Shown: positions 11,701 to 63,504 of the stretch, piece by piece | How positions within the stretch are numbered: position 1 is the stretch's first letter | Layout of the letters: each line of letters opens with the position of its first letter | The notes under the pieces: generated by a model | The model's input: the letters and a program-made list of their open reading frames with translations, nothing else | Told to the model about the DNA's origin: nothing | Databases searched by the model: none | Program-made: the position numbers and the translations under genes | Virus record (IMG/VR): IMGVR_UViG_3300042463_001065 | Coordinates: 48,068 to 112,067 of that record | Strand: one strand, 5' to 3' | Source: a virus | DNA: 64,000 nt

Positions 11701-11718
11701 CAAATTAATTGTGGATAA
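8716..11718 (+). CDS. Large baseplate/tail structural protein
   Basis: This 1,000-residue protein overlaps both neighbours through TAATG junctions. Residues ~435-475 contain YRNLILNSGFLFRSKGTR followed by IEYIMRMIGAPDALIEFNE. I remember this pattern from tail/baseplate proteins of T4-like environmental phages, but I could not confirm it here. The C-terminal quarter is Cys-rich (CTFILGD, CLPCEY, CDSSS), which may mean disulfides or bound metal. There is no signal peptide. A baseplate wedge or fibre-attachment role is inferred from size, position and the adhesin genes that follow. Confidence 0.75.
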   Translation: MAKTKFICPTPPPVGSGTFSDDLVGVQLVSGGGLTLGNFQFTRSVYEKVSRTFSTGIFSDPFNLENLNIQSLEESKKIIEKNFKVYPNFDLSQITSFSLYGSLSKRISSSINKIINYFPAAIEVNFTNLILQTGNTAFNISYDVIDNETTFNIDSNFFRNPFDIDFSINANSNVKNRPIKVSKYRDLTSNYQDFAVFVGETNNEYKIVDLIPTSSVTGGTVTITVQGNPFSSTTTTETILLKPNKLITEKIFQDDFDEVEDYLLNRYAYPQYTTKFSYPDYDDNGNYIIINKILTWSLDGLWNLDIRTSQFDEYLTNLQYITERLDEYKTNLVSRFLISGSLKEFDTNDQKIEKTLQIYGRSFDETKKFIDALANIISVNYVVKNDIPSALLANLAATLGIDPNISPITNDSLLQSVFSTTNDIIYPGQGKEDTPAELNYQYYRNLILNSGFLFRSKGTRTSIEYIMRMIGAPDALIEFNEYVYLADQKISLDDFYEKYAKISGGTTYIESPTLDSTNVFSILGTQYTGFTTSGVIKSTLPDLNNYPINIDTGYPEMPTESDSFFFQKGAGWFETTPDHRSTEEIDFTLSNFTVSPSIIVTKLKPFTYGQDYLNRYEKFPTMDIGYGLTKTIDNKKSWKKDEVGLRKNTQSSAPTNYLLENEGQVINVKNMELYLNMGQGITYDIWEMSSRYGYPIPNSGLTAPYPSPGLNDWTIIDPKPNKKTFFEFAQTFYNNLINVRNRQTISDGKTGGYPALQSIFWKYLQTDQVLNIPNNKFTYQKMIDFTLGLGDYWIRLVEQFVPATTIWNTGQKLDNSVFHRQKFVWRRQRGCTFILGDLKNTDCLPCEYNGEPYTYDCIDQTTQCSLPTFDPIAVLNEKINQLYTSSGFTSANCDSSSMVSTWYIELTLKDTITNIEDTLVFEPFYVGYGQNAVDITTGLPIDYFQVINAIDSKLQYLYQYGLNYYFSGGVLTISNSSCYDNFTNKLLNLYVGLDLQINCG

Positions 11719-14474
11719 TGGCTTGTATTACTGGATTTACTACTGGTGGTTATTATAGTTATACCGATTGTTGTGGTGTATTACAAGTTGGTTTTGCCGG
11801 TGGATTGGATACGGTATGTGTTGATACGGCATTTTCAGGATCATCTATTGGACTTATTTTAGATCCTATAAGTGTTTGTGTTCAAGACTGTAGTACGGGA
11901 CCACTAAGTTATACTTTTTCAGTAACAGGTGTTTGTGATAACCCCACGGGTGCGGTTACATTTTCATCATTTGGAGGTGTATCACCTTATACTATAGATA
12001 ATATCACACCTTTAGGTAGCGGTTTAAGTGCCCAAACAAGTTCAGGTCAAATAACATTCACAGGTCTGACTGGTGGTACATATGTGTTTAGATTGAATGA
12101 CTCATTAGGTCTTCAAAATAACGAACTTTTTATAAATTTATTAGTTTCTGATTGTTTTTCTGCAAATATTTTAAATACAACAGGAACTTTATGTGGAGAA
12201 AATAATGGTAGTTTTGAGGTTAGTGGTACATCGGTAAATGCACCATACACCATACTTGTTTATAGTGGTGTATCTGATTATGTTGGAAGTTTTAATGCAA
12301 TAACATTCCCATACCAAATTAACGGTTTACCACCATCAATATATCATGCGGTTGTATATGATTATGGTTTGGCTACTGCGATAACTGAAAATGTTGTTAT
12401 AAGTGCTAGCACAAATATTGATTATGGTTTTTGGGTTGTTGATGCCGGAACTTGTGTTATTAATACTGGTAAAGTTGCGGTTACAGGGGTAACTGGAACA
12501 GGACCTTATACGTATTTGTGGTCAGATGGTCAAACCACACAGTTGGCTACAGGTTTAACTGCCGGTAACTACTCAGTAACTGTTACCGATTTTTATGGAT
12601 GTCAAGTCACAAAACAAGCGACAGTTGGGATTGCACAACCACTTGGAGTACTTTCTATAACCCCAACAGAACCAAATTGTTTTACGTCAAATGGATCATT
12701 ACAAATAACAATGTCAGGTGGTACCGGACCTTATTTTTATTCGGCAAATACTGGACAAGTTGGTTACACATTATCAAATACTTTTACTATAAGTTCATTA
12801 CCTGCGGGTAGTTACTCTATTTTAGTAAGAGACGCAAATTACTGCCCAATTATTGTTAATACTTCATTAAATACTGTTGGAGGATTTAACGTTGTTGGAA
12901 ACAATATAACAAATTCAAGTTGTAATCAAAGTAGCGGATCAATAACAACAACAATAAGTGGATTAATTGGATTTTATTTATACACATTAACCGGTTTATC
13001 TACAAATCAAGTTTACACTTTTTACACACAAAGTCAAAATGTTACATTTCCAAATCTACAAAATGATACTTATGTTTTAACAATATCAGGAGAAAGTTCG
13101 GGTTGTGGTTATGCTGAAACTTTGGTTGTTAATTCAGATGAAAAATTTAGTGTTGATGTTTCCGTTACTAATGCGACTTGCGAATTGAGTAATGGTTTAA
13201 TTACTGTAAATGTTGGAACGGGATACACTAATTGGCAAACAGGAGGACAATTAGATTATATTTTAACAGGAACACCACCAATTATTGATACAACTCTTAG
13301 CTCAATGACTTTTAGTAATTTGGCTCCCGGTATATACACAATACAAGTAAGGGACGAAGATGATTGTATTGTTTCAGATACATTTACAATAGGAACAACA
13401 CCACAACTTGACAGTGCAGTTTTTGTGAATAATTGTGTATTTGGTAATGATGGAACCGCAAATGTGTCTATTTTTGATGGTACACCACCATTTACATACG
13501 ATTGGTCAGATAATGTACCACCACTACAAACGGGTAGTACTGTAACTGGTTTATCGGGTGGATCGTATACTGTTACGGTTACTGATAATAGTGGATGTAC
13601 AAACTACCTTTCTTTTGTTATTGACTGTACTTTCACACAAATAACAGGTTTTACAAGGTACAGTATTTGTTCAGATAATAATTTTACAACAACTTCAGGT
13701 ACAAAAAGAGGTATTACCGAAATGGTGTCTGAAGGGTTTTTGGATTTAACGTCAGGTTATACTAATTGTTTATTAAATAGTTACATTTTAGAATGTGAAA
13801 TCAATTTGAATGGAAGTGCGTTTACTCAAACTATTATTGTTGAAAACGATGCTGGATGGCAATCGGCAATTGAGACAATATTATCATCAATACCCGAAGT
13901 TGGTGAATATAGTGTGAATCTATTGAATAACACAATACAAATAAAATCTAATTGTCAAGGAGGTGTTGACCCATTAGGTAACGCAGGGTTTAACCTATCT
14001 TTAAATATTGATTACGATATTTCTTGTCAAGATGTTATACCAACACCAACTCCGAGCCCAACTCCTACCGCAACACCAACACCAACTCCGAGTCCAACAC
14101 CAACTCCGAGTCCAACACCAACTCCGAGTCCAACTCCGAGCCCAACACCTGCACCAACAACGGTCAATTATGCTTGGTTTACTAATGGACCATTTAACTA
14201 CCCATCTTCATCAACCGTACCTTGTAGTGCATACGCCGCAGCGGGATGTAGTTCACAAACTTTTTACACGGCAACACCAACAATTACAGTGGGTACTATA
14301 ATTTATGTTGATCAAAATCTTACAATACCTGCAACAGGATGGGTATATAATTTAGGATCGTCTGGTGGTGGTTGGGGTAGAAATTACTTATCAAATGACT
14401 GTCCTGTGGTTGGACTTAGATACGTTGTTCAAGTAGGTGCTAGTGCTAATGTTTTAAACGTTTATCAGTGTTAA
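11718..14474 (+). CDS. Adhesin-like tail fibre with SprB-type repeats and a Ser/Thr-Pro stalk
   Basis: I chose ATG 11718, which overlaps the upstream stop as TAATG, over a TTG nine bases earlier; this gives 918 residues. About seven ~75-residue repeats fill residues ~75-640. Each contains a [11 protein letters not shown]-like turn, a [13 protein letters not shown]-like strand pair and a Cys, the signature of SprB repeats in flavobacterial gliding adhesins. Residues ~773-815 are a Ser/Thr-Pro stalk. The last ~100 residues form a Cys-containing domain with a YVDQNLTIP motif that recurs in the 543-residue fibre downstream. It probably binds the host surface. Similar repeats reappear at 20.7-22.3 kb. 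Confidence 0.85.
14038..14160 (+). repeat. In-frame tandem repeat coding the Ser/Thr-Pro stalk
   Basis: An imperfect 18-bp unit, roughly ACTCCGAGTCCAACACCA, is repeated in frame and encodes TPSPTP. The copies are near-identical at the DNA level, so the array can expand or shrink by slippage and so change stalk length. Confidence 0.85.
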
Positions 14475-14475
14475 T

Positions 14476-14763
14476 ATGCCGTATTCAATAGACATAACAG
14501 GAGTTTCAGGGGGGACCGCACCAATAGCGTTCTATGCTTGTGATGAATATGGGAATAATTGCACACTTTTAGGTTACGCACCCGGAATATATGTTTTACC
14601 AACATTATTACAGACCGCAACTACCATTATGGTTAAATCGGTTGATAGTACGGGTTGTATTTACTTCAAAATTATTTCTTGTGCTCCTGAAGATGATTAT
14701 TTTATCCTTACAGAATTAGGTGATTTTTTAACAACAGAAGGTGGGGACGCGTTAGTTTGGTAG
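14476..14763 (+). CDS. Small fibre-associated protein, paralogue 1
   Basis: This 95-residue protein starts 1 nt after the large adhesin. It shares a pattern with the products of 14782-15069 and 20482-20700: a short Gly-rich start, a [AWL]xCD motif (FYACDEYG here), a second Cys, and an [IV]K[IS][IV]Dxxx[CG] segment (MVKSVDSTGCIYFKI). There is no signal peptide or membrane segment. The motif resembles half of an SprB-like repeat. Because each copy follows a fibre gene, it may be a fibre tip, cap or assembly partner; this is inference. Confidence 0.7.
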   Translation: MPYSIDITGVSGGTAPIAFYACDEYGNNCTLLGYAPGIYVLPTLLQTATTIMVKSVDSTGCIYFKIISCAPEDDYFILTELGDFLTTEGGDALVW

Positions 14764-14770
14764 TTATACA

Positions 14771-14778
14771 TATTTATT
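14771..14778 (+). promoter_or_regulatory. Late-type A+T motif TATTTATT
   Basis: The motif lies 3 nt before the ATG at 14782 in an 18-nt intergenic gap. It matches the recurring TATTTATW element; promoter function is inferred. Confidence 0.35.
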
Positions 14779-14781
14779 ATT

Positions 14782-15069
14782 ATGATAATTAATATAACAG
14801 GAGATACTGGTGGAGTTGAACCATATGACGTTTATTTATGCGACCCAACAAATACAGGTTGTTTTTATATATCAGGGCTAACTTCAATACCGGCAACAAT
14901 TGTGATTGACACACAATCATATTTTCCTTACGAAACTTTTTTATATTTAAAAATTATTGACACTATCGGATGCATAAAATTATATCCAATAGATTGTGTT
15001 AATTTCAAGGCTTTCCAAGATGGAATATTCTTTGATTTTATGGACGGAATACCATTTTCGTTTCAATAA
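14782..15069 (+). CDS. Small fibre-associated protein, paralogue 2
   Basis: This 95-residue protein has the same layout as the preceding gene: ITGDTGGVEPYDVYLCD at the N-terminus, then LYLKIIDTIGCIKLYPIDC. Both end in a short extra strand region (FFDFMDGIPFSF here) of similar length. The tandem position points to local duplication followed by strong divergence at the DNA level. Function is unknown; a fibre accessory role is inferred from position. Confidence 0.7.
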   Translation: MIINITGDTGGVEPYDVYLCDPTNTGCFYISGLTSIPATIVIDTQSYFPYETFLYLKIIDTIGCIKLYPIDCVNFKAFQDGIFFDFMDGIPFSFQ

Positions 15070-15084
15070 AAAATATTAATAATA

Positions 15085-15096
15085 TATTTATAAAAT
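15085..15096 (+). promoter_or_regulatory. Late-type A+T motif TATTTATAAAAT
   Basis: The motif lies 5 nt before the ATG at 15102 in a 32-nt gap and is one of the recurring elements in front of virion genes. Confidence 0.4.
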
Positions 15097-15101
15097 AAAA
15101 T

Positions 15102-16724
15102 ATGCCAACATATCAATTACTTACTGATAGAACATTAGCACAAACATCGGCAATAACACCGACAACACTAATACATATTGTATACACCGGAGACCCTTCA
15201 CAAAATCCTGCAGGATCTTCTTATAAGGCGGAACTACAACAATTGTTAACAATATTTAAAGATACTTTTGTTACCGGAGGAACTTATAGTTCGGGCACAG
15301 CAACATTTACAAATAGTACTGGAGGTACGTTTAACGTTACAGGCTTTTTTACGGGAAGTACGGATGTTAGAGTAACAGGGGCAACATATTCAAATAACAG
15401 TTTTACGTATATAAATAATACGGGAGGAACATTTTCAGTATTATTCAATACCGTAACAGGACTAACAACCAATGGAAATTTAACAGTTACCGGCACGACT
15501 TCATCAAACACAATATCTGCAACAACATACCAAAATTTACCAACAGACATTAGAGTAACAGGAGCAACATACTCTAATAACGCATTTACATACACAAATA
15601 ACACTGGTGGAACATATAGTGTATTATTTAATACTGTGACAGGGTTAACGGTGAATGGACAACTATCGGTAACAGGTAATACAGGATTAGGAACGTCTTC
15701 ACCAAGTACAAGATTAGATATAACATCATCAAATACCTCCTCTGCGGTGAATAATACTTTAAGATTTACCGACACGGATACTATATCCGCGAATAACCAA
15801 TTTAAAGGAAAAATAGAATTTTATAGTAACGATACTGGTGGTGTCGGAGTTAAAAGTTATATAGGAGGTGTCACAAACACAGCATCTGAAGGGAGTTTAA
15901 TATTTGGAACAACAGGAGCAACCGGTTCACTAACAGGAGGGACAACTGTTGGTGAAAGAATGAGAATTGATAGTAGTGGTAATGTAGGTATTGGAACGTC
16001 TTCACCATCATATAAATTAGACGTGAATTCAGGTGATTTTGTTATTGACGAAATTGCAATTAGGGCGGTAAATAATGAATCAACACCTAAAGGTGTGTTA
16101 ATAATTCCTACGGCAGATGATGATTCATATAATTATAATACAATTTCAGGTGATACGGTTATTGTTGCTACTGGAGGTAGAAGTCTAGTGATTGGTGCTG
16201 GAGGTGTAGGATCTGGATTTAGATTTAGTGGAACCTCAACACCAACACCAACATCCGCAGTAGTAACCACTGGAGCTAGATTGGGTATAGGATCTGCCTT
16301 TTACACATCATCGGAACAACCATCAACAAATATAGATGTGGATGGTAATGGTAGATTTAGGACTGTTGGAGCGACGGCATTTTTTGCCAATCTTAATATT
16401 ACCTCAGACGGTACATTAACAACCGCAACTTCTGATATTAGATTAAAAGAAAATATTGAACCATTAACTAATTCGTTAGAAAAACTCTTACAACTTTCAG
16501 GTGTTACTTATAGTTGGATTGGTCAAGAAGGAAAAAAAATTGGTTTTATTGCTCAAGAAGTTGAAAAAGTTATACCTGAGTTAGTCTTCATTAATAATAA
16601 TACTGAAGATAAAATTAAAGGAATACATATGGACAACATAACCGCGGTTTTGGTTGAAGCAATCAAGGAACAACAAAAAATTATTGAGGAACTAAAGGTA
16701 AGAATTAGTAATTTAGAATCTTAA
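15102..16724 (+). CDS. Tail fibre/spike with C-terminal S74 intramolecular chaperone
   Basis: This 540-residue protein ends in a Peptidase_S74 (endosialidase-type) chaperone domain at about residues 443-540. SDIRLKENI carries the Ser and, five residues later, the Lys of the self-cleavage dyad. Next come a GFIAQEVEKVIPE segment and a terminal coiled coil. This family trimerises beta-helical fibres and then cuts itself off. Two tandem ~62-residue copies of [IV]RVTGATYSNN...NNTGGT begin near residues 88 and 151, followed by GLGTSSPSTRLDI and GIGTSSPSYKLDV repeats typical of S74 fibres. Role: trimeric receptor-binding fibre. Confidence is high for the domain and inferred for the receptor role. 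Confidence 0.9.
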   Translation: MPTYQLLTDRTLAQTSAITPTTLIHIVYTGDPSQNPAGSSYKAELQQLLTIFKDTFVTGGTYSSGTATFTNSTGGTFNVTGFFTGSTDVRVTGATYSNNSFTYINNTGGTFSVLFNTVTGLTTNGNLTVTGTTSSNTISATTYQNLPTDIRVTGATYSNNAFTYTNNTGGTYSVLFNTVTGLTVNGQLSVTGNTGLGTSSPSTRLDITSSNTSSAVNNTLRFTDTDTISANNQFKGKIEFYSNDTGGVGVKSYIGGVTNTASEGSLIFGTTGATGSLTGGTTVGERMRIDSSGNVGIGTSSPSYKLDVNSGDFVIDEIAIRAVNNESTPKGVLIIPTADDDSYNYNTISGDTVIVATGGRSLVIGAGGVGSGFRFSGTSTPTPTSAVVTTGARLGIGSAFYTSSEQPSTNIDVDGNGRFRTVGATAFFANLNITSDGTLTTATSDIRLKENIEPLTNSLEKLLQLSGVTYSWIGQEGKKIGFIAQEVEKVIPELVFINNNTEDKIKGIHMDNITAVLVEAIKEQQKIIEELKVRISNLES

Positions 16725-16765
16725 TTTTTATTTACAAACTATTTTCAAAAATCTATTTTTAGATT

Positions 16766-18001
16766 ATGAAAATATTTATTCAAATCGCATCTTATAGAGA
16801 TCCGGAATTAATACCAACAATCAAATCATGCTTAGAAAATTCTAAACATCCTGAGAATTTAGTTTTTGGAATTGCAAGACAATTTCATCCTGACGATAAG
16901 TTTGACGATCTTACTGAATATGAAATTGACGATAGGTTTAGAGTTTTAAACATACCACACCAAGAATCAAAAGGTGTTTGTTGGGCTCGTAATCAAGTAC
17001 AACAACTATATAAAGACGAGGAATATACCTTACAGATAGATTCACATATGAGATTTGAAAAAGATTGGGATGAGACTCTAATAGGTATGATTAAACAACT
17101 GCAAGACTTAGGAATACCAAAACCACTATTAACAGGTTACGTATCTTCTTACGACCCAAATAACGACCCAAACGGAAGAGTAAGAGTGCCTTGGCGAATG
17201 GTATTTGACAAATTTATACCTGAAGGTGCCGTTTTCTTCTTACCTGAAGCAATTCCTGATTGGCAAAATATTGATACGCCGATACCATCAAGATTTTATT
17301 CCGCCCATTTTTGTTTTACATTAGGTCAATTTAGTAAAGAAGTTCAACACAACCCTGATTTTTATTTTCATGGAGAAGAGATATCAATCGCAGTTAGGGC
17401 CTTCACTCACGGATATGATTTATTTCACCCCCATAAAGTGGTTATTTGGCATGAATATACAAGAAATGGTAGAGTAAAACAGTGGGACGACGATAAAGAA
17501 TGGTATAAAAAGAATGAAAGTGCACATTTATTAAATAGGAAACTTTTTGGTATGGATGGTGAAAATCAAGAAGGACATGTTGGAAAATATGGTTTAGGAA
17601 ATGTTAGGGCATTAAGGGATTATGAAAAATACGCTGGATTGTTGTTTGAAAAAAGATCAGTACAAGAATACACACTACAAAAAAATTACCCACCAAATCC
17701 TGAAATAGAAAACGAAAAAGAATGGGAAAAAAGTTTTTCATCTATGTTTGAACATGAAATAAGTTTAGATAAAAACAATTTCACACAAGATGATTATGAT
17801 TTTTGGGCGGTAATATATCACGACGAAAACGGACAAGAAATTTATAGAAAAGATGCAACAGAATCGGAAATTAATAATTACATAAAAAATGAAATAACAA
17901 TAAGAAGGCAATTTTTAACATATAGAAAACCCAAGTCATGGACTGTTTGGGCTCATTCTAAAACAAAAGATTGGTTAGAAAAATTAGAAGGGGCCGTATG
18001 A
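16766..18001 (+). CDS. GlcNAc-type glycosyltransferase
   Basis: This 411-residue protein matches the pattern of the GlcNAc glycosyltransferase family (PF11397 type). It opens with IFIQIASYRDPEL, has GVCWARNQVQ near residue 73, and has a QIDSHMRFEKDWDE segment with the DxH metal/sugar motif near residue 92. A second acidic motif, FHGEEISIAVRAFTHGYD, follows near residue 205. There is no signal peptide, so it would act in the host cytoplasm. It sits between fibre genes and overlaps the next transferase-like gene by 4 nt (ATGA). Likely targets are the Thr-rich fibre stalks, but host glycan or DNA modification cannot be excluded. Confidence 0.85.
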   Translation: MKIFIQIASYRDPELIPTIKSCLENSKHPENLVFGIARQFHPDDKFDDLTEYEIDDRFRVLNIPHQESKGVCWARNQVQQLYKDEEYTLQIDSHMRFEKDWDETLIGMIKQLQDLGIPKPLLTGYVSSYDPNNDPNGRVRVPWRMVFDKFIPEGAVFFLPEAIPDWQNIDTPIPSRFYSAHFCFTLGQFSKEVQHNPDFYFHGEEISIAVRAFTHGYDLFHPHKVVIWHEYTRNGRVKQWDDDKEWYKKNESAHLLNRKLFGMDGENQEGHVGKYGLGNVRALRDYEKYAGLLFEKRSVQEYTLQKNYPPNPEIENEKEWEKSFSSMFEHEISLDKNNFTQDDYDFWAVIYHDENGQEIYRKDATESEINNYIKNEITIRRQFLTYRKPKSWTVWAHSKTKDWLEKLEGAV

Positions 18002-18789
18002 TTGAAAATCCAACTATAGTTACCGCATTATTTGATATTGGAAGGGACAAGTGGTCTAACTATGGGTTATCTTACCACACATATATGATGTGGATGAGAA
18101 ACTTACTTTTGTTTGACTCTAAAATGGTAATATATACGGAAGAAAAGTTTGAAGGTTTTATAAAAGAACAAAGAAGTGTTGTTGACCCCAATTTAGATAA
18201 AACGATCATAATCATAGACAAAATTGAAAATTTAGATTCATATAAGATGTTTCATGAAAAGGTTTTTAATCTAATGATATCTGAAAATTTTAAATCTAAA
18301 ATACATTTCAAAGTCCCCGAAATGACAGAATCGTTATACAACATCGTAATTTTCAATAAACCATACTTCATTAAAAGCTCAATAGAAAAGAAACATTTTG
18401 ATTCTGATATGTTCATTTGGTGTGATGCTGGGGTTCTTAGAAACGATAACCCTGAAATTAAACGAGGGTTCCCGAATGTTGAAAAAATTAATCAAAAATA
18501 TAATGATAAAATAACATTTTTTAGTCATCACGAAGAGTTTTTAGTTCCCGATAGACCATTTCATTTACTATCACAATTTAGATATATTCATGGAGGTTGT
18601 TTTTTTGTTCCTAATAATGGGGTTATATATCCATTTATTAAACATTTTATAACTTTAATACAAAACCACTTAGACTTGGAGTTTGTTGGTAGCGAAGAAA
18701 AATATTTGGATTTCTGTTATTTAGACAATAAAGAAAATTATAATATCATAAAGTCCGATTGGAGGCAATATTTTGACATTTTCAAATGA
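17998..18789 (+). CDS. HtrL/YibB-like putative glycosyltransferase
   Basis: I start this gene at ATG 17998, which overlaps the upstream stop as ATGA, and not at the earlier in-frame codon; the protein has 263 residues. IVTALFDIGRDKW near the N-terminus, the MVIYTEE strand and FIWCDAGVLRN near residue 140 match the pattern of HtrL_YibB proteins, which are relatives of sugar transferases with a D-x-G site. It is translationally coupled to the GlcNAc-transferase gene, which suggests a two-step glycan assembly on the same target. The catalytic role is inferred from the family, whose biochemistry is poorly known. Confidence 0.7.
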   Translation: MIENPTIVTALFDIGRDKWSNYGLSYHTYMMWMRNLLLFDSKMVIYTEEKFEGFIKEQRSVVDPNLDKTIIIIDKIENLDSYKMFHEKVFNLMISENFKSKIHFKVPEMTESLYNIVIFNKPYFIKSSIEKKHFDSDMFIWCDAGVLRNDNPEIKRGFPNVEKINQKYNDKITFFSHHEEFLVPDRPFHLLSQFRYIHGGCFFVPNNGVIYPFIKHFITLIQNHLDLEFVGSEEKYLDFCYLDNKENYNIIKSDWRQYFDIFK

Positions 18790-18818
18790 GTTACTATACA
18801 ATAAAACAAACTTATGAT

Positions 18819-18826
18819 TATTTATA
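18819..18826 (+). promoter_or_regulatory. Late-type A+T motif TATTTATA
   Basis: The motif lies 19 nt before the fibre gene start at 18846 in a 56-nt gap. It is one of the recurring elements before virion genes. Confidence 0.4.
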
Positions 18827-18845
18827 TAATAAAGTCTAAAGTTTA

Positions 18846-20477
18846 ATGGCGGATTTAAGATTTCAAGGTTGTTGTTATGATGGTTACCAATATGTAACTA
18901 ACGACGCCGCTTGGGTTGCTACCGGTGGTACCGCAACAACAGGTTTAACATATCATTTTTCAGGTGACCCCGTTGTTCCTGATGGTTGTTATACTATTGT
19001 CTCGGCATTTACGAGTGGTTTTACCGCAACAACATTTTCAATATTTGACGGTGTTTATACCATTCAAACAGATTGTTCTGATACACTTTGTTTGACTGGT
19101 GATTGTTGTAGCAATGACATATGTATTAATATATCAATTAACACATATTCAGGGTACAATGGAACATATGAGGTTGCTGGGAACTATAATAGTTACCCAT
19201 ATTGGACGGGTGGAACTGTGCCAGGATACCTTTATTTTAATAATACTAAGTGGTGTTTAACTTCAGGTTTAACCGCAACATGTCTATTTTATGGACCTAA
19301 CCCAACAACGTCAAGTTGTCCCGATATTGATGAAACTTTATATTATTCGGGGGTTTGTTTCCCAACACCAACACCATACGATCCGTGCTCAATATTAGAT
19401 TTTGATATTGTTTTAGAATGTGCGTTTCCGACACCTACACCGACAGTAACACCAACCCCCACACCGACAGTAACACCAACCCCTACACCAACCCCCACAA
19501 TAGATATTTGTTCAGGGTATACTGTAGGTGTTTCATTTTCGGCAATAACACCAACTCCTACACCAACCCCTACACCAACACCCACACCACCTGTTTATCC
19601 ATATAATGTAGTTTCAGGTGTGACTTTTGTAATTGATAGTGGTAATTTTGTTTGTGTTAATGTAAATAAATTAGTGGATTGTAATAGTAGTGATATATTC
19701 TTTGTCAGTGGACCAATAATATATTCAGGATCACCAATCGTAACAGGAACAACTATTTTAGGTTTAATTAATGACCAATATAAGTGTTTAACATATACCG
19801 AAAACGTATTTGGTAGTCCTGCCGATTATTTACAAGGAGTAATAAGCGCATCAACAAGTGGATGCTCATATTGTACAGTTCCTGCACCGACACCGACACC
19901 TACTCCAACACCAACACCTACTCCAACACCAACCGCAACGCCAGTGATAACACCAACATACGCACCAAACACAGTATTTGTTTTTACATCATGTACAGAC
20001 AACTCAATGATTATTCAATACACTTACCCTCCATATAATGTTAATATTGGGGATATATTAAAAACAACATCAGGAGCATGTTACTCCTATATTGGTAACT
20101 ATTATTCATATACACCACCTGTTGGATATATTTGGTCTTATGTTGAAACATTTACCGCAACAACCGCAACAACATATACAAATTGTGTAAATTGTTTAAT
20201 ACCAACACCTCAACCAACACTATCTTATAGTATTTGGAGAGCAAGGGGTGAGTTCTCACTTTCTTGTCCTGTATGTGAATTAACAAATGGTGGATCAGTA
20301 ATAACATTCTATACCTCATCTTCTGATTCTGTAATACAAACGGGGGTATATATTTATGAAGATCAAACATTAACTACACCTGTTATTGTTGACTACATAA
20401 AATATGGAACTAAAATATATAGTGTAGACGTTGATGGGAAATTAACTGAAATATGTAACGTAAACGGAAATTGTTAA
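18846..20477 (+). CDS. Cys-rich tail fibre with three Thr-Pro stalks
   Basis: This 543-residue protein alternates small Cys-containing domains with Thr-Pro linkers at about residues 194-220, 235-249 and 346-369. The N-terminus has several Cys pairs (GCCYDGYQ, CLTGDCCSND). The C-terminal ~100 residues contain VYIYEDQTLTTP, related to the YVDQNLTIP motif at the end of the adhesin at 11.7-14.5 kb, so both probably share a tip domain. There is no signal peptide or membrane segment. I infer a host-binding fibre whose stalks are candidates for O-glycosylation by the adjacent transferases. Confidence 0.8.
   Translation: MADLRFQGCCYDGYQYVTNDAAWVATGGTATTGLTYHFSGDPVVPDGCYTIVSAFTSGFTATTFSIFDGVYTIQTDCSDTLCLTGDCCSNDICINISINTYSGYNGTYEVAGNYNSYPYWTGGTVPGYLYFNNTKWCLTSGLTATCLFYGPNPTTSSCPDIDETLYYSGVCFPTPTPYDPCSILDFDIVLECAFPTPTPTVTPTPTPTVTPTPTPTPTIDICSGYTVGVSFSAITPTPTPTPTPTPTPPVYPYNVVSGVTFVIDSGNFVCVNVNKLVDCNSSDIFFVSGPIIYSGSPIVTGTTILGLINDQYKCLTYTENVFGSPADYLQGVISASTSGCSYCTVPAPTPTPTPTPTPTPTPTATPVITPTYAPNTVFVFTSCTDNSMIIQYTYPPYNVNIGDILKTTSGACYSYIGNYYSYTPPVGYIWSYVETFTATTATTYTNCVNCLIPTPQPTLSYSIWRARGEFSLSCPVCELTNGGSVITFYTSSSDSVIQTGVYIYEDQTLTTPVIVDYIKYGTKIYSVDVDGKLTEICNVNGNC
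19426..19950 (+). repeat. Three in-frame Thr-Pro coding repeat blocks
   Basis: Blocks at about 19426-19503, 19549-19590 and 19883-19950 are built from ACACCNACN-type hexamers coding TPTP. They are interrupted by ~30- to 95-residue folded segments and are not spaced like a CRISPR array. Confidence 0.8.
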
Positions 20478-20481
20478 AAGT

Positions 20482-20700
20482 ATGCCAACATTAGTAACAT
20501 TAACAGCAACAACAGGAACCTTACCACTAAATTTGTGGATATGTGATAGTACTGGTGCGACAGCCACTTGTATTTATTACGATACTGTCACATCTTTACC
20601 ATATCCGTTTGTTTTACCTCCAGTATATGAAACTTACCCTTCATATGCATTAAAAATTATAGATGCTAATTTATGCATTTATTATGAATTATCACCATAA
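20482..20700 (+). CDS. Small fibre-associated protein, paralogue 3
   Basis: This 72-residue protein lies 4 nt after the Cys-rich fibre. Its pattern (LPLNLWICDST, a second Cys, YALKIIDANLCIYYEL) matches the two 95-residue proteins at 14.5-15.1 kb but lacks their C-terminal ~20 residues. It is the third copy placed directly after a fibre gene, which supports a shared fibre-linked role. Function is otherwise unknown. Confidence 0.65.
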   Translation: MPTLVTLTATTGTLPLNLWICDSTGATATCIYYDTVTSLPYPFVLPPVYETYPSYALKIIDANLCIYYELSP

Positions 20701-20715
20701 ATTAAACTATAAATT

Positions 20716-22338
20716 ATGCCAGGATACAGTGCAAATACATGTGATATTATAACTTTGTACCCTTTAGGGGTGACTTGTAGTACTATTAGTGCTTTTACAC
20801 CATTTACAGTTGATGGTGTTGCTTCATTAATCATTACAGGAGGAACACCTCCATATAGTGTGACTTGGGAAAACGGAGCACAAACACAATTTTTGGCTGG
20901 TGTCGCTGCCGGTGATTATACCGCAACAGTAACTGATTATTATGGAGATTTTACAGCAACAACCACATGTACCGTCCCTTATAGTACGTTTTATTTAGAG
21001 GAGTTCTATGATTGTAATGACTTTAATAATAAACTATACTATGTTGCTAATTTAGAAAACCAAACACAAACGGGAGTAACATTTACACTTAATTCTCAAC
21101 TTGGTTGTTGGATATCTAACGGCCTTATATTGTATTCTGGTCAAAGTTATTATAATTATAATGTTATAACAACATCAGGACCATTTTTAAACTGTACCGA
21201 TTGTTTACCGATCACACCACAACTTGAAAACACATCAGGGTTATGTCTAACATCACAAATAATTACACCCGGTTTACCACCAACAATTGCAACAACACAA
21301 TACCAATTTTATTCTGCTAATACTATAAATAATTACCCTTCTTGGACAAGTAATACATTAACTATGTATTATAATAATAGTGCAACACAATGGATGATTT
21401 CAGGTTGGACTCAAACGGGTATACCACTTTTACAATCAACACTTTCCCCACCAATTGGTATATGGACGTATAACGGACCAGGAACTGCGATTGTGACACA
21501 AGGTGATTGTGTAAGTAGTTTTGACATTACAACTAGCACAATCAACCCAACTTGTGAAGGGGTTAGTAACGGTAAAATTGTTGTAAATTCAGTTGTTGGG
21601 GGTACTTCTCCATACACATATTCAATAAATGGAATAACTTTTCAAATATCAAACATATTTTTAGGTTTGGCTGATGGAACATATACGGTTTATGTAAAAG
21701 ATTTGATTGGTAATATTAGTACAAAACTAGTGACTTTATCAAATCAAAACCCAATAACAAATTACCAAGTAACGTTGAATTTAGTACCACCAAACCCAAC
21801 AGTAACAAACACATCAATCTCAAGAGAATGTACTTATAATTGGGAGGTATCAGTAACACCAACATTACCTGCAAACAGAGAAATAAACTTTACAATTATT
21901 CACACGTCAAGTTTATCTGGTGGAACTTCCTCTAATGCAGTTCCAACATTAACATATGTAGGAACAACAGGAACTACGGGTGGAGGACAATTTTTAACAT
22001 CTAACGTATCTCAAACAAGTAACACATCTCTCACTGTAGGATGTCACCCAATTTATTACACAACAGGAATTACAAGAATATACAGTGCAAAAATAGTTGG
22101 CACAGGTAAAGTGACTGGGCAAGTTTTTATGAAAGTTACAACACCAAACGGAAATGCGACTTGTGCACCATATGCTAAAATAAATGACACAATAACCGTA
22201 AATGGTACTATATTATTGAATAATGGTCCTTGCGAAACAGTAATACCACCAATAAATACTTTGACTTTTGGTGTCTCAAAACAAGCAAATACTGTTTACT
22301 ACGGTTTAGGTGGAGGTATAGGGGTTGGTAACATATGA
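20716..22338 (+). CDS. Adhesin-like fibre with SprB-type repeats
   Basis: This 540-residue protein has SprB-like repeats near residues 25-90 (GGTPPYSVTWENG, then AGDYTATVTDYYG) and 275-340 (GGTSPYTYSING, then LADGTYTVYVKDLIGN). The middle contains FYSANTINNYPSW-type segments and several Cys. The C-terminal region (~350-540) is a Thr/Asn-rich beta domain. It resembles the 918-residue adhesin but lacks a Thr-Pro stalk. A role in receptor binding is inferred. Its stop overlaps the next gene, a putative sugar transferase, by 4 nt. Confidence 0.8.
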   Translation: MPGYSANTCDIITLYPLGVTCSTISAFTPFTVDGVASLIITGGTPPYSVTWENGAQTQFLAGVAAGDYTATVTDYYGDFTATTTCTVPYSTFYLEEFYDCNDFNNKLYYVANLENQTQTGVTFTLNSQLGCWISNGLILYSGQSYYNYNVITTSGPFLNCTDCLPITPQLENTSGLCLTSQIITPGLPPTIATTQYQFYSANTINNYPSWTSNTLTMYYNNSATQWMISGWTQTGIPLLQSTLSPPIGIWTYNGPGTAIVTQGDCVSSFDITTSTINPTCEGVSNGKIVVNSVVGGTSPYTYSINGITFQISNIFLGLADGTYTVYVKDLIGNISTKLVTLSNQNPITNYQVTLNLVPPNPTVTNTSISRECTYNWEVSVTPTLPANREINFTIIHTSSLSGGTSSNAVPTLTYVGTTGTTGGGQFLTSNVSQTSNTSLTVGCHPIYYTTGITRIYSAKIVGTGKVTGQVFMKVTTPNGNATCAPYAKINDTITVNGTILLNNGPCETVIPPINTLTFGVSKQANTVYYGLGGGIGVGNI

Positions 22339-23189
22339 TAAAAAGAGCAGTTTATTCTTTATGGACAAAACCTATGAACGGTAAAACCGTAGGGTTTAAT
22401 ACTGAAAAAAATTTAATAGAGTGTTTTGCTTTATCGTTACATTATACAAAAAAATGGTTTGATGAGGTGTATTTAGTTACCGATTTTGAAGGTAAAGACT
22501 TAGTTGAAAAGTATGGTTTGTCTTTTGATAATATTGATACAAGTTTGGAACATGCTATGATGGGTATTTATGAAAACCATTGGTCATTAGGAAAAATTTA
22601 TGCGTGCAAACTACAAAAAGAACCTTTTATACATATAGATATTGACGTTATATTATTCAAACCACTTCCGGATAAATTTTTAAAATCAGATGCTGCTTTT
22701 CAAAACTTAGAAACTGAGTCACAAAAATATTGGTATAAATGGTTATTAGATCATGCTGAAAAAAATTATACAAGTAAACCAAAATGGTTTGATACCGAAA
22801 AAGTCAAAGCATATAATTGCGGAGTTATTGCGTTCAATAAATTAGACGTAATACAAGAATGGTGGACGGAATCGTTAAATTACATAAAATTTTTAGACGA
22901 GTCAAAGTTTAACTACGATCACCATTTATCTTGTTTAATATATGAGCAATTTTGTATATATTGTATTTGTAAATTTTATAAATATAACGTTGATTTATTA
23001 ACGTTTTATGGTGAAAGTCATGAAAAATATATGGGAACTATTTCCGAAGAATTGGCAAAAAAATTAGGATATACTCACCTAATAGCTGCAAGTAAAAGAG
23101 ACCCACTCATAGAAAAAAAAATAAAAAATAGACTTTTAGAAGAGGGAATTACGATTAAAAAAAATAACAAAGATTTAAGTATTTATTAG
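22335..23189 (+). CDS. Putative glycosyltransferase (GT-A-like)
   Basis: This 284-residue protein starts within the stop of the preceding fibre gene (ATGA). It has FIHIDIDVILFKPLP near residue 95, a DxD motif on a strand as in GT-A sugar transferases, then AYNCGVIAFNK near residue 160, which fits the conserved NxG region of such enzymes. There is no signal peptide. As the third transferase-like gene inside the fibre cluster and coupled to a fibre gene, it is a candidate for modifying that fibre. Substrate is unknown. Confidence 0.7.
   Translation: MIKRAVYSLWTKPMNGKTVGFNTEKNLIECFALSLHYTKKWFDEVYLVTDFEGKDLVEKYGLSFDNIDTSLEHAMMGIYENHWSLGKIYACKLQKEPFIHIDIDVILFKPLPDKFLKSDAAFQNLETESQKYWYKWLLDHAEKNYTSKPKWFDTEKVKAYNCGVIAFNKLDVIQEWWTESLNYIKFLDESKFNYDHHLSCLIYEQFCIYCICKFYKYNVDLLTFYGESHEKYMGTISEELAKKLGYTHLIAASKRDPLIEKKIKNRLLEEGITIKKNNKDLSIY
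23179..23186 (+). promoter_or_regulatory. Late-type A+T motif TATTTATT
   Basis: The motif lies in the last codons of the transferase gene, 4 nt before the ATG at 23191 of the next structural gene. It fits the recurring late-type element. Confidence 0.35.
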
Positions 23190-26036: not shown

Positions 26037-26438
26037 ATGAAAAGAATTATTAGATTAACAGAATCAGATCTTACAAGAATCGTAAGACGAGTTATTAGTG
26101 AACAAACATTAACCCCTAAATCAGATATGATTGGAAAAACATTTAAATTGAATGGTAAAATGTGTAAAGTTGAAAAGGCGTTACAATTACCAAACGATGG
26201 AGGTGTTTTGATTTTACCAGACATGGCTAGTGGTTGTAGAAAAAATAACGGTGTAGTTGGTATGGAAAAAGGATATATTTATTTAGGTAGTGGTAATTCA
26301 GTTATGAGTATGTTTGAGTGGGATACAACAACAAATAATTGGAAGGATCTTGGAGAAGGAGAATTATCTGAACCTAGAAATCCATTAGGTAGTATTGCAT
26401 TTGTAACTACGGAATCTTATAGAAGAAGAAACTATTAA
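26037..26438 (+). CDS. Leader-bearing small protein, probably packed in the virion
   Basis: This 133-residue protein begins with the basic amphipathic leader MKRIIRLTESDLTRIVRR, ending VISE-Q near residue 22. The body (~23-133) has no recognised family; FKLNGKMCKVEKALQLP and MEKGYIYLGSG are its clearest segments. The leader DNA is nearly identical to that at 60050. By analogy with T4 capsid-targeting sequences, cleavage after ISE is predicted. The gene has its own late-type motif and a strong terminator, so it is a single-gene unit. The body's function is unknown. Confidence 0.8.
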   Translation: MKRIIRLTESDLTRIVRRVISEQTLTPKSDMIGKTFKLNGKMCKVEKALQLPNDGGVLILPDMASGCRKNNGVVGMEKGYIYLGSGNSVMSMFEWDTTTNNWKDLGEGELSEPRNPLGSIAFVTTESYRRRNY

Positions 26439-43413: not shown

Positions 43414-44035
43414 TTTTTAATCTATATAACCTTTTTTTGTCATATCCTTTCTTTTCTAATAACTCATATAACCATTTCCTTTGTGCTGAAGAAACATCTC
43501 TTACAAAAATACCATCAAGCCTTTTTTTCTCATAAAAATACTCCTCAATTTTATTTAAAAGCCTTTCGGAATCCGTTTTATCCTTCAATGAAAATAAACT
43601 AACATCTGAGTCCAATTGAATACAAATTTTATTGTGTAAAGTGAATATATTTTTTAGTTCGGTATTATTGCAGTAGGTGTTAATTATTTCACCAAAAGAT
43701 ATTTTATTTTGTGTTTGCCAATCAAAAACCTTTTCCTCAACATAGTATTTTTTTAAATCTAAAAAAACATAATCAGGATCTTCTAAATTAACAGGATTAT
43801 TTCTACCCAGATCATCGGTAATAAATAAACTTTTTTGGACATTACTTGTGTTAGTAAGTAGACCCAACTCATACTCAACAGGGGTTGCGTTCTCTATAAC
43901 TTTTTCAAAAACAATTTTATTATTTTTTATTATATCATCAAATTTCTTTTTTGCATTCATTTCTGTTGCATATGAATTGATAATTTTTCTTTTTTTCTTA
44001 TTTTTGAATAATACAATTAAATAGTTACGCTTCAT
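43394..44035 (-). CDS. Unknown minus-strand protein, 213 residues
   Basis: It begins MKRNYLIVLFKNKKKRKIINS and contains LFITDDLGRNNPVNLEDPDY and a basic C-terminus (KKGYDKKRLYRLKTTFSKR). There is no signal peptide. It is divergent from dnaJ, sharing 2 bp at the starts, and convergent with the small gene at 43192. No function can be given. Confidence 0.65.
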   Translation of the reverse strand: MKRNYLIVLFKNKKKRKIINSYATEMNAKKKFDDIIKNNKIVFEKVIENATPVEYELGLLTNTSNVQKSLFITDDLGRNNPVNLEDPDYVFLDLKKYYVEEKVFDWQTQNKISFGEIINTYCNNTELKNIFTLHNKICIQLDSDVSLFSLKDKTDSERLLNKIEEYFYEKKRLDGIFVRDVSSAQRKWLYELLEKKGYDKKRLYRLKTTFSKR

Positions 44036-45035
44036 GAAAAATTATTATGAAATTTTAGGTGTCTCAGAAGATTCATCACAAGATGAAATAAAAAAGGCCT
44101 ATAGAAAATTAAGTAAACAATACCACCCAGATGTAAACCCTGAAGGTGAAGAAAAGTTTAAAGACATTGCTGAGGCCTACGATAATATTGGGGATGTAAA
44201 AAAACGAGAAGAATATAATATGAGACGTAACAACCCTTTTTCTGAAATGGGTGGTGGTGGTTTTGACATACATAGTATGTTTGAACAAATGGTGAACGGA
44301 CAAAGACAACAAAGAAGGGCTCCTGACAAAGTTATAAATTTAGAAATAACACCTGTAGAATCTTTTTTTGGGGTTAAAAAAGAAATTAATGTAGATGTTT
44401 TAGAAAATTGTGTAACCTGTAATGGTTCTGGTGGTGATAGACACATTTGTAATAATTGTAACGGTAACGGGTTTATTTATCAGATTTTTGGTACCGGAAT
44501 GTTTAAACAACAAATTCAGATGGCTTGTAATGTTTGTAATGGTGCGGGTAGTAAAATTGTTAAACATTGCGGTACATGTAACGGTAATGGTAGAACTAGA
44601 AACCCACAAAAAATTAACGTATCAATACCACCAAATTCAGATAATGGGGATTTTATGAGAGTAAGAGGTAAAGGTGATTATTCAAATAGTACCAACACTA
44701 ATGGGGACTTAATATTAAAAATTAATTTAAATGAAAATACCGATTTTCAAAAAAGTGGGTATGACTTAATTTATAACAAAAAATTAGACGTATTAAATAT
44801 AATCACTGACGATACTATAGATATTGAACATCCTGAAGGTACTTTAAGGATTTCAATACCAAAAACATTGGATTCAGACAAACCATTAAGAATACCAGGT
44901 AAAGGGTATAAAACACCACAAGGAAATGGTAATTTTTACATAAAACTGTCAATCCAAAAAAATAGTGAAATTGATCAGGATATTAGGGTTAAGATTAAAG
45001 AATTACTTCAAAAGAGAGATGAGGTCTCTAATTAA
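44034..45035 (+). CDS. dnaJ: DnaJ co-chaperone
   Basis: This 333-residue protein is a complete class I DnaJ. It has a J domain (~1-65) with the HPD motif in YHPDVNPEGEEKF, a short Gly-rich region (MGGGGFD), four CxxCxGxG zinc motifs (CVTCNGSG, CNNCNGNG, CNVCNGAG, CGTCNGNG) and a beta-rich client-binding C-terminus. It would recruit host DnaK for phage protein folding or assembly. It is shorter than bacterial DnaJ (~375), mainly in the Gly/Phe linker. It starts divergently from the minus-strand gene. Confidence 0.93.
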   Translation: MKNYYEILGVSEDSSQDEIKKAYRKLSKQYHPDVNPEGEEKFKDIAEAYDNIGDVKKREEYNMRRNNPFSEMGGGGFDIHSMFEQMVNGQRQQRRAPDKVINLEITPVESFFGVKKEINVDVLENCVTCNGSGGDRHICNNCNGNGFIYQIFGTGMFKQQIQMACNVCNGAGSKIVKHCGTCNGNGRTRNPQKINVSIPPNSDNGDFMRVRGKGDYSNSTNTNGDLILKINLNENTDFQKSGYDLIYNKKLDVLNIITDDTIDIEHPEGTLRISIPKTLDSDKPLRIPGKGYKTPQGNGNFYIKLSIQKNSEIDQDIRVKIKELLQKRDEVSN

Positions 45036-59632: not shown

Positions 59633-60028
59633 ATGATAATTCAATTAACAGAATCACAATTAATAAATGTAATTAAAAATGTTACTAATAATAACAACAA
59701 TTATATATATGAAGACATATATGGTTCAGTTGAAAATACAAAATTTGAAGAAAATTACTTTTTAAATGAAGCCGAGTACCAAGGAAGAAAAGTCCAACTT
59801 GGAAAAATCATGCAGGGTGACATTAAAAAATTCAAAGTTTATGTTAAAAACGACAAAGGTAAAGTTGTTAAAGTAAACTTTGGTTTTGGTGGTAAATCGG
59901 CTAAAGGTAAAAGAATGGTTATAAAGAAAAATAACCCTGAAAGAAGAAAGTCTTTTAGAGCAAGACATAATTGTGATAATCCCGGTCCAAGATGGAAACC
60001 TAGATATTGGGCTTGTAGAACATGGTAA
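59633..60028 (+). CDS. Leader-bearing basic protein, 131 residues
   Basis: It begins MIIQLTESQLINVIKNV and reaches an [I/L]xE site near residue 25 (IYE) and another at LNE near residue 45. The body is basic: VYVKNDKGKVVKVNFGFGG, then NPERRKSFRARHNCDNPG and RYWACRTW, with two conserved Cys and two Trp. It looks like a small nucleic-acid-binding or capsid-internal protein. I recall this C-terminal pattern in environmental T4-like phages, but I give no name. Confidence 0.72.
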   Translation: MIIQLTESQLINVIKNVTNNNNNYIYEDIYGSVENTKFEENYFLNEAEYQGRKVQLGKIMQGDIKKFKVYVKNDKGKVVKVNFGFGGKSAKGKRMVIKKNNPERRKSFRARHNCDNPGPRWKPRYWACRTW

Positions 60029-60049: not shown

Positions 60050-60400
60050 ATGAAAAGAATAGTTAGATTAACAGAATCAGATCTTACAAGAATTGTAAGA
60101 AGAGTAATACAAGAAGAAGAAGATGCTGTCATCGGATCAATTGAATCAGATATTAATTTAATTGATGACTCAGATCCTGATCCGGGGATTCTTCAAAAAA
60201 TAATAGATAAAATTGAAAATGCTGGTCATAACGTTGAAGATTTTGTAAAAAAACTAAGACGTGGAGGAGAAAAATTTATGAGGATATTAAACAAACAACC
60301 AGATTTTGATTTTAGATATAAAAGAAAAAAACCTTCTTTAATTAAGAATTTTTCAAAACCTCCTGGATTTATTGGAAAACCTGGAAAACATAAATTTTAA
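60050..60400 (+). CDS. Leader-bearing protein, 116 residues
   Basis: The leader reads MKRIVRLTESDLTRIVRR and ends VIQE-E near residue 22; its DNA is almost identical to the leader at 26037. The rest starts acidic (EEEDAVIGSIESDINLIDDS), then has a helix and a basic Pro/Lys-rich end. The shared leader with an unrelated body is direct evidence for leader shuffling. It is probably an internal virion protein. Confidence 0.78.
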   Translation: MKRIVRLTESDLTRIVRRVIQEEEDAVIGSIESDINLIDDSDPDPGILQKIIDKIENAGHNVEDFVKKLRRGGEKFMRILNKQPDFDFRYKRKKPSLIKNFSKPPGFIGKPGKHKF

Positions 60401-60985: not shown

Positions 60986-61285
60986 ATGAGTAAAATTATC
61001 ATAACAGAGAGCCAATTAGAAAAAATGGTTAAGTTTTTAAATGAGAATCATGATGATGGTTCTTATATGGCAAAACAACAACTTTTTACAATCGCAACTT
61101 TGGCATATAAAATGTGGGAAATGATGGAAGAAGGTGAACAATTGGAAGATTGGATGGAAACAAAAATTGCCCAATCTGAACAATCAGTGACTGCTGTTGT
61201 TAAAACTTACATGTATGGAGAAGTTGAAGATAGATTAAAAGGTAGTGCTGGTCTTGATTTGGGTGGGTTAATTATCGGAACTTAA
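60986..61285 (+). CDS. Leader-bearing small protein, 99 residues
   Basis: It begins MSKIIITESQLEKMVKFLNE-N, with the same ITESQL start as at 59633 and an LNE site at residue 20. The body has LAYKMWEMMEEGEQLEDWME and a Gly-rich end (GSAGLDLGGLIIG). The helical middle is acidic. No family is recognised; it closes a run of four leader-type genes. Confidence 0.7.
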   Translation: MSKIIITESQLEKMVKFLNENHDDGSYMAKQQLFTIATLAYKMWEMMEEGEQLEDWMETKIAQSEQSVTAVVKTYMYGEVEDRLKGSAGLDLGGLIIGT

Positions 61286-62544: not shown

Positions 62545-63504
62545 ATGTCATTAGATCCAAACAAACTTTATGGAATTGCACAATCATTAGCTGAAGTTGC
62601 AAAAGACGAATACGGAGAAAACGGTTTTATTGGTTTTAATAAAATAGTTAATATTTGTAGAACTAATCATTTTGCATTACTTTTATTATCAAGAGTATCA
62701 ACACCTGCAGACAAAGTTAAACTTGTTTTTATGTCCTATCTTATTATTACAGGTAGATATAAAAAAGAAACTATTATTGGTTTATCTTCACGTCTTTTTT
62801 TATACGTTATTGATTTTTATGACAATACAGAAGAAATAAAACAAGAATGTAGTAACTGTTATGGTAGTGGTGATGAAGAATGTAGTAGATGTGACGGTAC
62901 GGGTAATCAAGATTGTAGATATTGTGATGGTGAAGGAAAAATTGAATGTTACGAATGTTATGGTGAAGGAACTGAAGAATGTAGGCATTGTGATGGTAAA
63001 GGAACTGAAACTGACACAGAAGAAGATGATGAAGGTGAAGAAGTAGAAGTTGAAGTGGATTGTGGTGGTTGTGGAGGTTCTGGAAAAGAAGATTGTAGAA
63101 ATTGTGGTGGACAAGGTGATTATGAATGTCCAGAGTGTGAAGGATCGGGTGGTAAAACTTGTGAAGATTGCGGAGGTTATGGATCATACACTTGTGGATA
63201 TTGTGATGGTTACGGTGAAGAAGATAGTGGTACATACAAGTATAATATCACAAGAGTAACATATATAACACTTGGAAATAAATTATCTGAATTTGAAGGG
63301 CGGGAAATGTTATTAAGTGACTTTGAAGAAATAGATGGTGATGATGAAAAAGTACCATTTTCTTTTACTGTAAATAAAAGATATTTTCCAGATGATGATA
63401 TAACAAAAGAAGAAAGACAAGAAAGGGTTGGTTTGGATGACGACTTTGTTGAAATAATTGATGCATACAAATTAGAAAATTATAGATACGAGATAAAGTT
63501 TTAA
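62545..63504 (+). CDS. Protein with ten DnaJ-type CxxCxGxG zinc motifs
   Basis: This 319-residue protein has a helical N-domain (~1-100; MSLDPNKLYGIAQSLAEVAK), then ten CxxCxGxG motifs between ~109 and ~230: CSNCYGSG, CSRCDGTG, CRYCDGEG, CYECYGEG, CRHCDGKG, CGGCGGSG, CRNCGGQG, CPECEGSG, CEDCGGYG, CGYCDGYG. An acidic loop (EEDDEGEEVEVEVD) splits them 5+5. DnaJ has four and also a J domain; this protein has no J domain. It should bind about five zinc ions and may hold clients for the phage DnaJ. The C-terminus is strand-rich. No family name is certain. Confidence 0.8.
   Translation: MSLDPNKLYGIAQSLAEVAKDEYGENGFIGFNKIVNICRTNHFALLLLSRVSTPADKVKLVFMSYLIITGRYKKETIIGLSSRLFLYVIDFYDNTEEIKQECSNCYGSGDEECSRCDGTGNQDCRYCDGEGKIECYECYGEGTEECRHCDGKGTETDTEEDDEGEEVEVEVDCGGCGGSGKEDCRNCGGQGDYECPECEGSGGKTCEDCGGYGSYTCGYCDGYGEEDSGTYKYNITRVTYITLGNKLSEFEGREMLLSDFEEIDGDDEKVPFSFTVNKRYFPDDDITKEERQERVGLDDDFVEIIDAYKLENYRYEIKF

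Follow-up and report, generated by a model that had tools for sequence, protein, structure and literature searches.

A fibre gene cluster of a large aquatic phage with a GT60 transferase gene and Ser/Thr-Pro-rich stalks: a likely mucin-type O-glycosylation island

The fibre cluster and its transferase-type genes

The DNA analysed, referred to here as the window, is a 64,000-nucleotide stretch corresponding to positions 48068–112067 of an incomplete IMG/VR virus record (112,067 bases) from a large aquatic phage. It contains a cluster of fibre genes on the + strand, upstream of which lie a tail sheath gene and, as a weak match, a baseplate gp6/J-like gene. These two genes point to a contractile-tailed phage, and a Bacteroidota host would be consistent with the SprB repeats and the low GC.

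The first gene of the cluster, fibre 1 (11709–14474), encodes an SprB-repeat protein (PF13573 in five stretches, E = 5e-20), probably starting at the ATG at 11718, with an (S/T)P stalk of 18 Ser/Thr residues near its C terminus (14040–14150). It is followed by two small fibre-like modules (14476–14763, with no Pfam match, and 14782–15069) that cluster by BLAST with a third at 20482–20715; the three short modules are homologous, and one is fused to larger fibres in relatives. Downstream is a fibre with a C-terminal Peptidase_S74 intramolecular chaperone (15102–16724; PF13884, E = 1.8e-19). The gene for the GT60 polypeptide GlcNAc-transferase, our proposed initiator (16766–18001; PF11397, E = 1.6e-67), starts 41 bp 3′ of the end of this S74 fibre gene, and its stop codon forms a 4-nt ATGA overlap with the start of an HtrL_YibB-type GT-A protein, the proposed extender (17998–18789; PF09612, E = 3.5e-19). 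For the latter, a TTG start at 17971 was dropped in favour of the ATG at 17998 within the overlap. Fibre 2 (18846–20477) carries three (S/T)P stalks, with 11 Thr (19428–19496), 7 Thr (19545–19589) and 9 Thr (19887–19943). Following the third small module, an SprB-repeat fibre without a stalk (20716–22338; PF13573, E = 1.5e-10) shares a second ATGA overlap, at 22335, with the gene for a DUF6734 protein that contains a DxD motif and is a possible accessory transferase (22335–23189; PF20508, E = 3.7e-41). Scans for promoters and terminators in the cluster did no better than on shuffled sequence. The original prediction of three transferase-type genes within a fibre cluster, each coupled or adjacent to fibre genes, agrees with this arrangement, and the types it had assigned are borne out by the Pfam matches (PF11397, PF09612 and PF20508).

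Long (S/T)P stalks had also been ascribed to the fibres in general. This is true of two fibres, whose four stalks total 45 Ser/Thr and 44 Pro residues, but not of the S74 fibre, the SprB fibre at 20716–22338 or the small modules. Within the stalks, Thr recurs at approximately every second residue, and several synonymous codons are in use for both Thr and Pro, indicating that the tracts are maintained as protein sequence rather than as simple repeats in the DNA. The two components of a mucin-type system, Ser/Thr/Pro-rich acceptor domains and a polypeptide transferase, as assigned by family, were both found at the locus.

Outside the cluster, an N-terminal tag similar to MKRIIRLTESDLTRIVRRVIxE, which may be a signal for capsid targeting or for processing, was seen on several unrelated small ORFs of the window (26037–26438, 59633–60028, 60050–60400 and 60986–61285) and on one elsewhere in the record that contains it (G000:C1:12959-13324). 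The window also contains an ORF with many DnaJ-type CxxCxGxG zinc-finger repeats (62545–63504) and a DnaJ homologue (44034–45035).

Family, catalytic motif and predicted folds

Against the PF11397 (GlcNAc) profile, the GT60 protein scored 228.9 bits (curated cut-off 21); it also matched phrog_24687 (glycosyltransferase, E = 5e-159), and relatives are encoded in 359 candidate IMG/VR stretches. The metal/UDP motif, Asp92-Ser93-His94 (17039–17047), is a DxH and not a DxD triad and was unchanged across 42 relatives. A further block, HGEEIS...WHEYTR (G203, E205 and H229), presumably parallels the GGEN...GH of GT27, as compared by eye. A published family analysis notes that GT27 and GT60 have DxH where other families have DxD, and groups these two retaining families together, citing their common O-glycosylation of polypeptide Ser/Thr (PMC7185993).

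A sequence search of the PDB with the GT60 protein gave no match, so a search by fold was required. The AlphaFold2 model (pLDDT 91.9) was compared with PDB entries using Foldseek, whereby the top matches, from E = 4e-10, were mostly polypeptide GalNAc-transferases; GalNAc-T2 and T4 led the matches, which also included PGANT9, T10 and TgGalNAc-T3, as well as TarS and GlfT2, and place the modelled protein in the GT-A fold near GT27. TM-scores of approximately 0.5 correspond to a fold relationship, not close homology. Polypeptide GalNAc-transferases are the initiators of mucin O-glycosylation. Although they provide the closest solved folds and have the DxH motif in common with the window protein, they belong to another family, use GalNAc as the sugar and carry a lectin domain, whereas the window protein has a different C-terminal part.

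Characterised GT60 enzymes act on polypeptides. TcOGNT1 of Trypanosoma cruzi, a member of the same CAZy/Pfam family, is reported to place GlcNAc directly on Thr of Thr-rich mucins, with other enzymes extending the glycan (cited in PMC9472816); it is a eukaryotic Golgi enzyme, whereas the window GT60 is a soluble phage protein that would act in the bacterial cytoplasm. Gnt1 of Dictyostelium and Toxoplasma, also GT60, is cytosolic and adds the first sugar of a sequential glycan, but it needs hydroxyproline at a single site of the cytosolic protein Skp1 (PMC6939170). By family, the window protein is probably a polypeptide GlcNAc-transferase, and alpha-GlcNAc transfer is predicted.

In one phage (G001:C1:6137-8300, on the contig of L238) and on bacterial contigs L476, L487, L489 and L492, two to three GT60 genes adjoin in tandem; the copies may serve different acceptors or act sequentially.

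The YibB-type protein scored 69.9 bits against PF09612 HtrL_YibB (curated cut-off 24.1) and 91.1 bits against the equivalog TIGR02192, far under the cut-off of 264.9, and is therefore a family relative only and not YibB itself. Its model (pLDDT 91.6) was nearest in fold to XXYLT1 (xyloside xylosyltransferase 1), blood-group GT6 enzymes and LARGE1, with some nucleotidyltransferases scoring nearly as well as the glycosyltransferases. XXYLT1, GT6 enzymes and LARGE1 all extend existing glycans. The protein at 22335–23189 scored 141.8 bits against PF20508 DUF6734 (curated cut-off 27) and has a single, near-identical viral relative among those found; a PDB search with its sequence gave no useful match. 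An accessory transferase is possible from its D102-I-D104 motif, read from the sequence. The YibB-type and DUF6734 proteins are more likely to be glycan extenders than initiators.

Association of GT60 with (S/T)P stalks in viruses and bacteria

For comparison across loci, a stalk ORF was defined as one with at least eight (S/T)P pairs within 40 residues. Such ORFs were present in 33 of 38 non-redundant GT60 phage loci, with the other five topping out at 3–7 pairs per 40 residues; they number 52 (73 per Mb), and every one shares the strand of GT60. None was found in 120 random viral loci (1.04 Mb); since the random loci were shorter than the GT60 loci, rates per Mb compare the two more fairly. 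Elsewhere in GT60 phage genomes, distant regions gave stalk ORFs in 4 of 20 cases, or 13 per Mb. A second GT60 clade had them in 43 of 56 loci, and in the XacN1 group no more than 7 of 17 loci had a stalk at 10 kb or less from GT60. When complete loci were collected by an upstream structural marker gene, GT60 and stalks occurred together in 36 of 39, stalks alone in two and neither in one; the last was the most distant locus of the set, and one of the two stalk-only contigs carried two GT60 genes farther off. The strict tract lay nearer to GT60 than under random placement (combined p = 4e-4, including two near-identical genomes) and more than 16 kb from it in 5 of 12 phage genomes. In the reverse test, GT60 was detected in 7 of 29 viral records selected for stalks vs. 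0 of 26 random records (p = 0.01). The pairing of GT60 with stalks is far above chance, among loci that are related by descent and hence not independent.

Enzyme families beside GT60 in other loci include GT7C, GT9, GT10, GT11, GT25, GT34, GT61 and PLOD-GT, together with FkbM methyltransferases, a sulfotransferase, a carbamoyltransferase and epimerases. One frequent neighbour, taken for a possible transferase, proved to be a DNA polymerase.

A tblastn search of 50,697 phage records found GT60 in three only, the cultured phages XacN1, RAS14 and CM1. All three contain (S/T)P x4 tracts, compared with none of 17 cultured phages that lack GT60 (Fisher p = 0.0009, or 0.006 with RAS14 and CM1 counted once, shared ancestry remaining in both figures). 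The GT60-less set covered baseplate relatives (PBECO4, Atu_ph07, SCTP-2, Phosso, PA5oct, Munch and Xanthomonas phage XbC2), the RaK2-like phages RaK2, GAP32 and CBB, and more distant phages such as T4 and phage G; the sole pattern match in Munch was the antisense of a Gly-Asp run and not an (S/T)P protein. By ORF counts, 253 kb of XacN1 yielded 15 stalk ORFs, with a maximum of 13 pairs, scattered over the genome, vs. none in 340 kb each of RaK2, SCTP-2 and Atu_ph07, where the maximum is three pairs.

XacN1, a Xanthomonas jumbo phage, resembles the window phage in encoding a GT60 protein (ORF334, 44% identical), a YibB protein and (S/T)P-rich proteins, and differs in that its stalk genes are spread genome-wide. 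In its published description, proteomics is reported to have revealed at least two glycoproteins, of unstated identity, and the phage-encoded glycosyltransferases ORF328 and ORF334 were suggested as their makers; the authors named no GT60 family and drew no link to stalks (PMC5852040). At the XacN1 locus (L083 14989-21946), GT60 is followed by a carbamoyltransferase, which suggests that the XacN1 glycan is carbamoylated, then by unknown ORFs and a YibB-domain fusion; the order in RAS14 (L084) is similar.

In bacterial assemblies, GC-rich repeats swamp the strict (S/T)P codon pattern over whole genomes, and ORF counts in control regions were employed instead. Of 41 bacterial GT60 loci, 14 had a stalk ORF, compared with none of the 20 control regions taken from genomes of the same set (p = 0.002); some of the GT60 contigs may be phage-derived. 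In Jiulongibacter sediminis (L479 7942-11224), two GT60 genes flank an (S/T)P-rich ORF, which offers a simple setting in a bacterium for examining enzyme–acceptor pairing.

A pairing of this kind could arise with no functional link, the (S/T)P tracts serving as flexible linkers or recombination points and GT60 being inherited along with the fibre module. Most loci do share ancestry, and many viral records have (S/T)P tracts without a detected GT60 (22 of the 29 selected for stalks, most of them fragments). We nevertheless consider this unlikely, given that the pairing recurs in separate settings (the window clade, the second GT60 clade, the XacN1 group and bacterial chromosomes), that the 17 cultured GT60-less phages have no stalks and that the genome-wide stalk ORFs of XacN1 go beyond what gene linkage alone explains.

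A proposed route to glycosylated stalks

The locus is likely to be a phage-encoded mucin-type O-glycosylation island, in which GT60 starts the glycans of the stalks and the YibB-type protein, perhaps with the DUF6734 protein, extends or varies them. Self-glycosylation of the stalks, as first proposed, is the best-supported reading, favoured by the substrates of GT60 enzymes, the predicted fold and a recurrent pairing that is absent from related phages lacking GT60. The analysis establishes the genes, GT60 family membership, the catalytic motif, the predicted folds and a strong, recurrent association with (S/T)P-rich proteins; what we propose for the acceptor, for the sugar and its linkage, for the order in which sugars are added and for the benefit is inferred.

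In the cytoplasm of the infected cell, GT60 would move GlcNAc, probably alpha-linked, from UDP-GlcNAc of the host, its sole requirement, onto many Thr/Ser residues in the stalks of fibre proteins that have just been synthesised. Further sugars would come from the YibB-type transferase coupled to it and perhaps from the DUF6734 protein; in other loci, extension and decoration would fall to the variable neighbours. An initiator that is conserved while the extenders beside it change fits a pathway with a fixed first step and variable outer sugars. Stalks built in this way would be stiff and extended, with a brush of sugars, and would serve to space and shield the parts that bind receptors. In the original prediction, the sugars were suggested to give resistance to proteases or concealment from host defences. 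Stiffness, spacing and shielding as benefits are suggested by analogy with mucins and with mycobacteriophage virion glycans. For the latter, glycans on phage structural proteins (Freeman et al. 2023), with a reported shielding role, are located on the C termini of capsid and tail tube subunits and not on fibre stalks (cited in PMC12619734).

That the transferases instead act on host surface glycans, for receptor masking or superinfection exclusion, and not on the virion, is in our judgement very unlikely. HtrL_YibB genes do occur in bacterial lipooligosaccharide loci (PMC4172580), and some phage transferases alter host serotype (cited in PMC12619734), but GT60 and its GT27 relatives have polypeptides as substrates, and action on the host gives no reason for embedding among late fibre genes or for the tracking of stalks.

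A route like that of Skp1, with a prolyl hydroxylase making stalk hydroxyproline for GT60 to glycosylate, is highly improbable. Proline makes up half of the stalk residues, and Gnt1 provides a precedent, being a GT60 enzyme of the cytosol whose substrate is hydroxyproline (PMC6939170), but the hydroxylase is mostly absent from GT60 phages: the PF13640 prolyl-hydroxylase-type oxygenase, the only family searched, was detected in just 2 of the 26 records of GT60 phages, and the present, incomplete record was not one of them. A suspected oxygenase elsewhere in this record (G000:C1:3355-3984) did not match PF13640.

Glycosylation of phage DNA is what phage transferases are best known for (cited in PMC12619734), but it is scarcely credible here, given that GT60 is not among the known DNA-modifying families, that the stalk association would be left without reason and that TET/JBP enzymes were found in 0 of 26 GT60 phage records in a search that had no positive control; one YibB-domain fusion neighbouring GT60 (L059:13471-15141) gave a weak hit on TAGT, the TET-associated glycosyltransferase (E = 1.6e-4), which would fit such a role.

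The general O-glycosylation of Bacteroidota, to which the original prediction had also appealed, likewise places O-linked glycans on bacterial proteins. Its sequon is D(S/T)(A/I/L/V/M/T). None occurs in the four stalks, and this system is therefore probably not involved.

To our knowledge, only a handful of cases of protein glycosylation by phages are known, and O-glycosylation of the mucin type is generally regarded as eukaryotic. A literature search, with most subscription journals outside its scope, found no paper tying GT60 to phage (S/T)P stalks. The recurrence of the pairing in many phages and some bacteria suggests that a mucin-like coat of sugars is probably made by these viruses themselves. 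The chances are about even that GT60 and (S/T)P-stalk proteins form a general prokaryotic system of large phages and diverse bacteria, cytoplasmic, sequential and mucin-type, with swappable extenders and decorators giving fibre brushes that vary by lineage. As a single marker, GT60 predicts which phages should have mucin-like glycoproteins; these comprise hundreds of environmental genomes as well as three phages in culture, which makes the question directly testable. If correct, the proposal would provide a source of bacterial-style polypeptide GlcNAc-transferases for study, and would bear on host recognition by fibres and on how the surroundings see phage particles.
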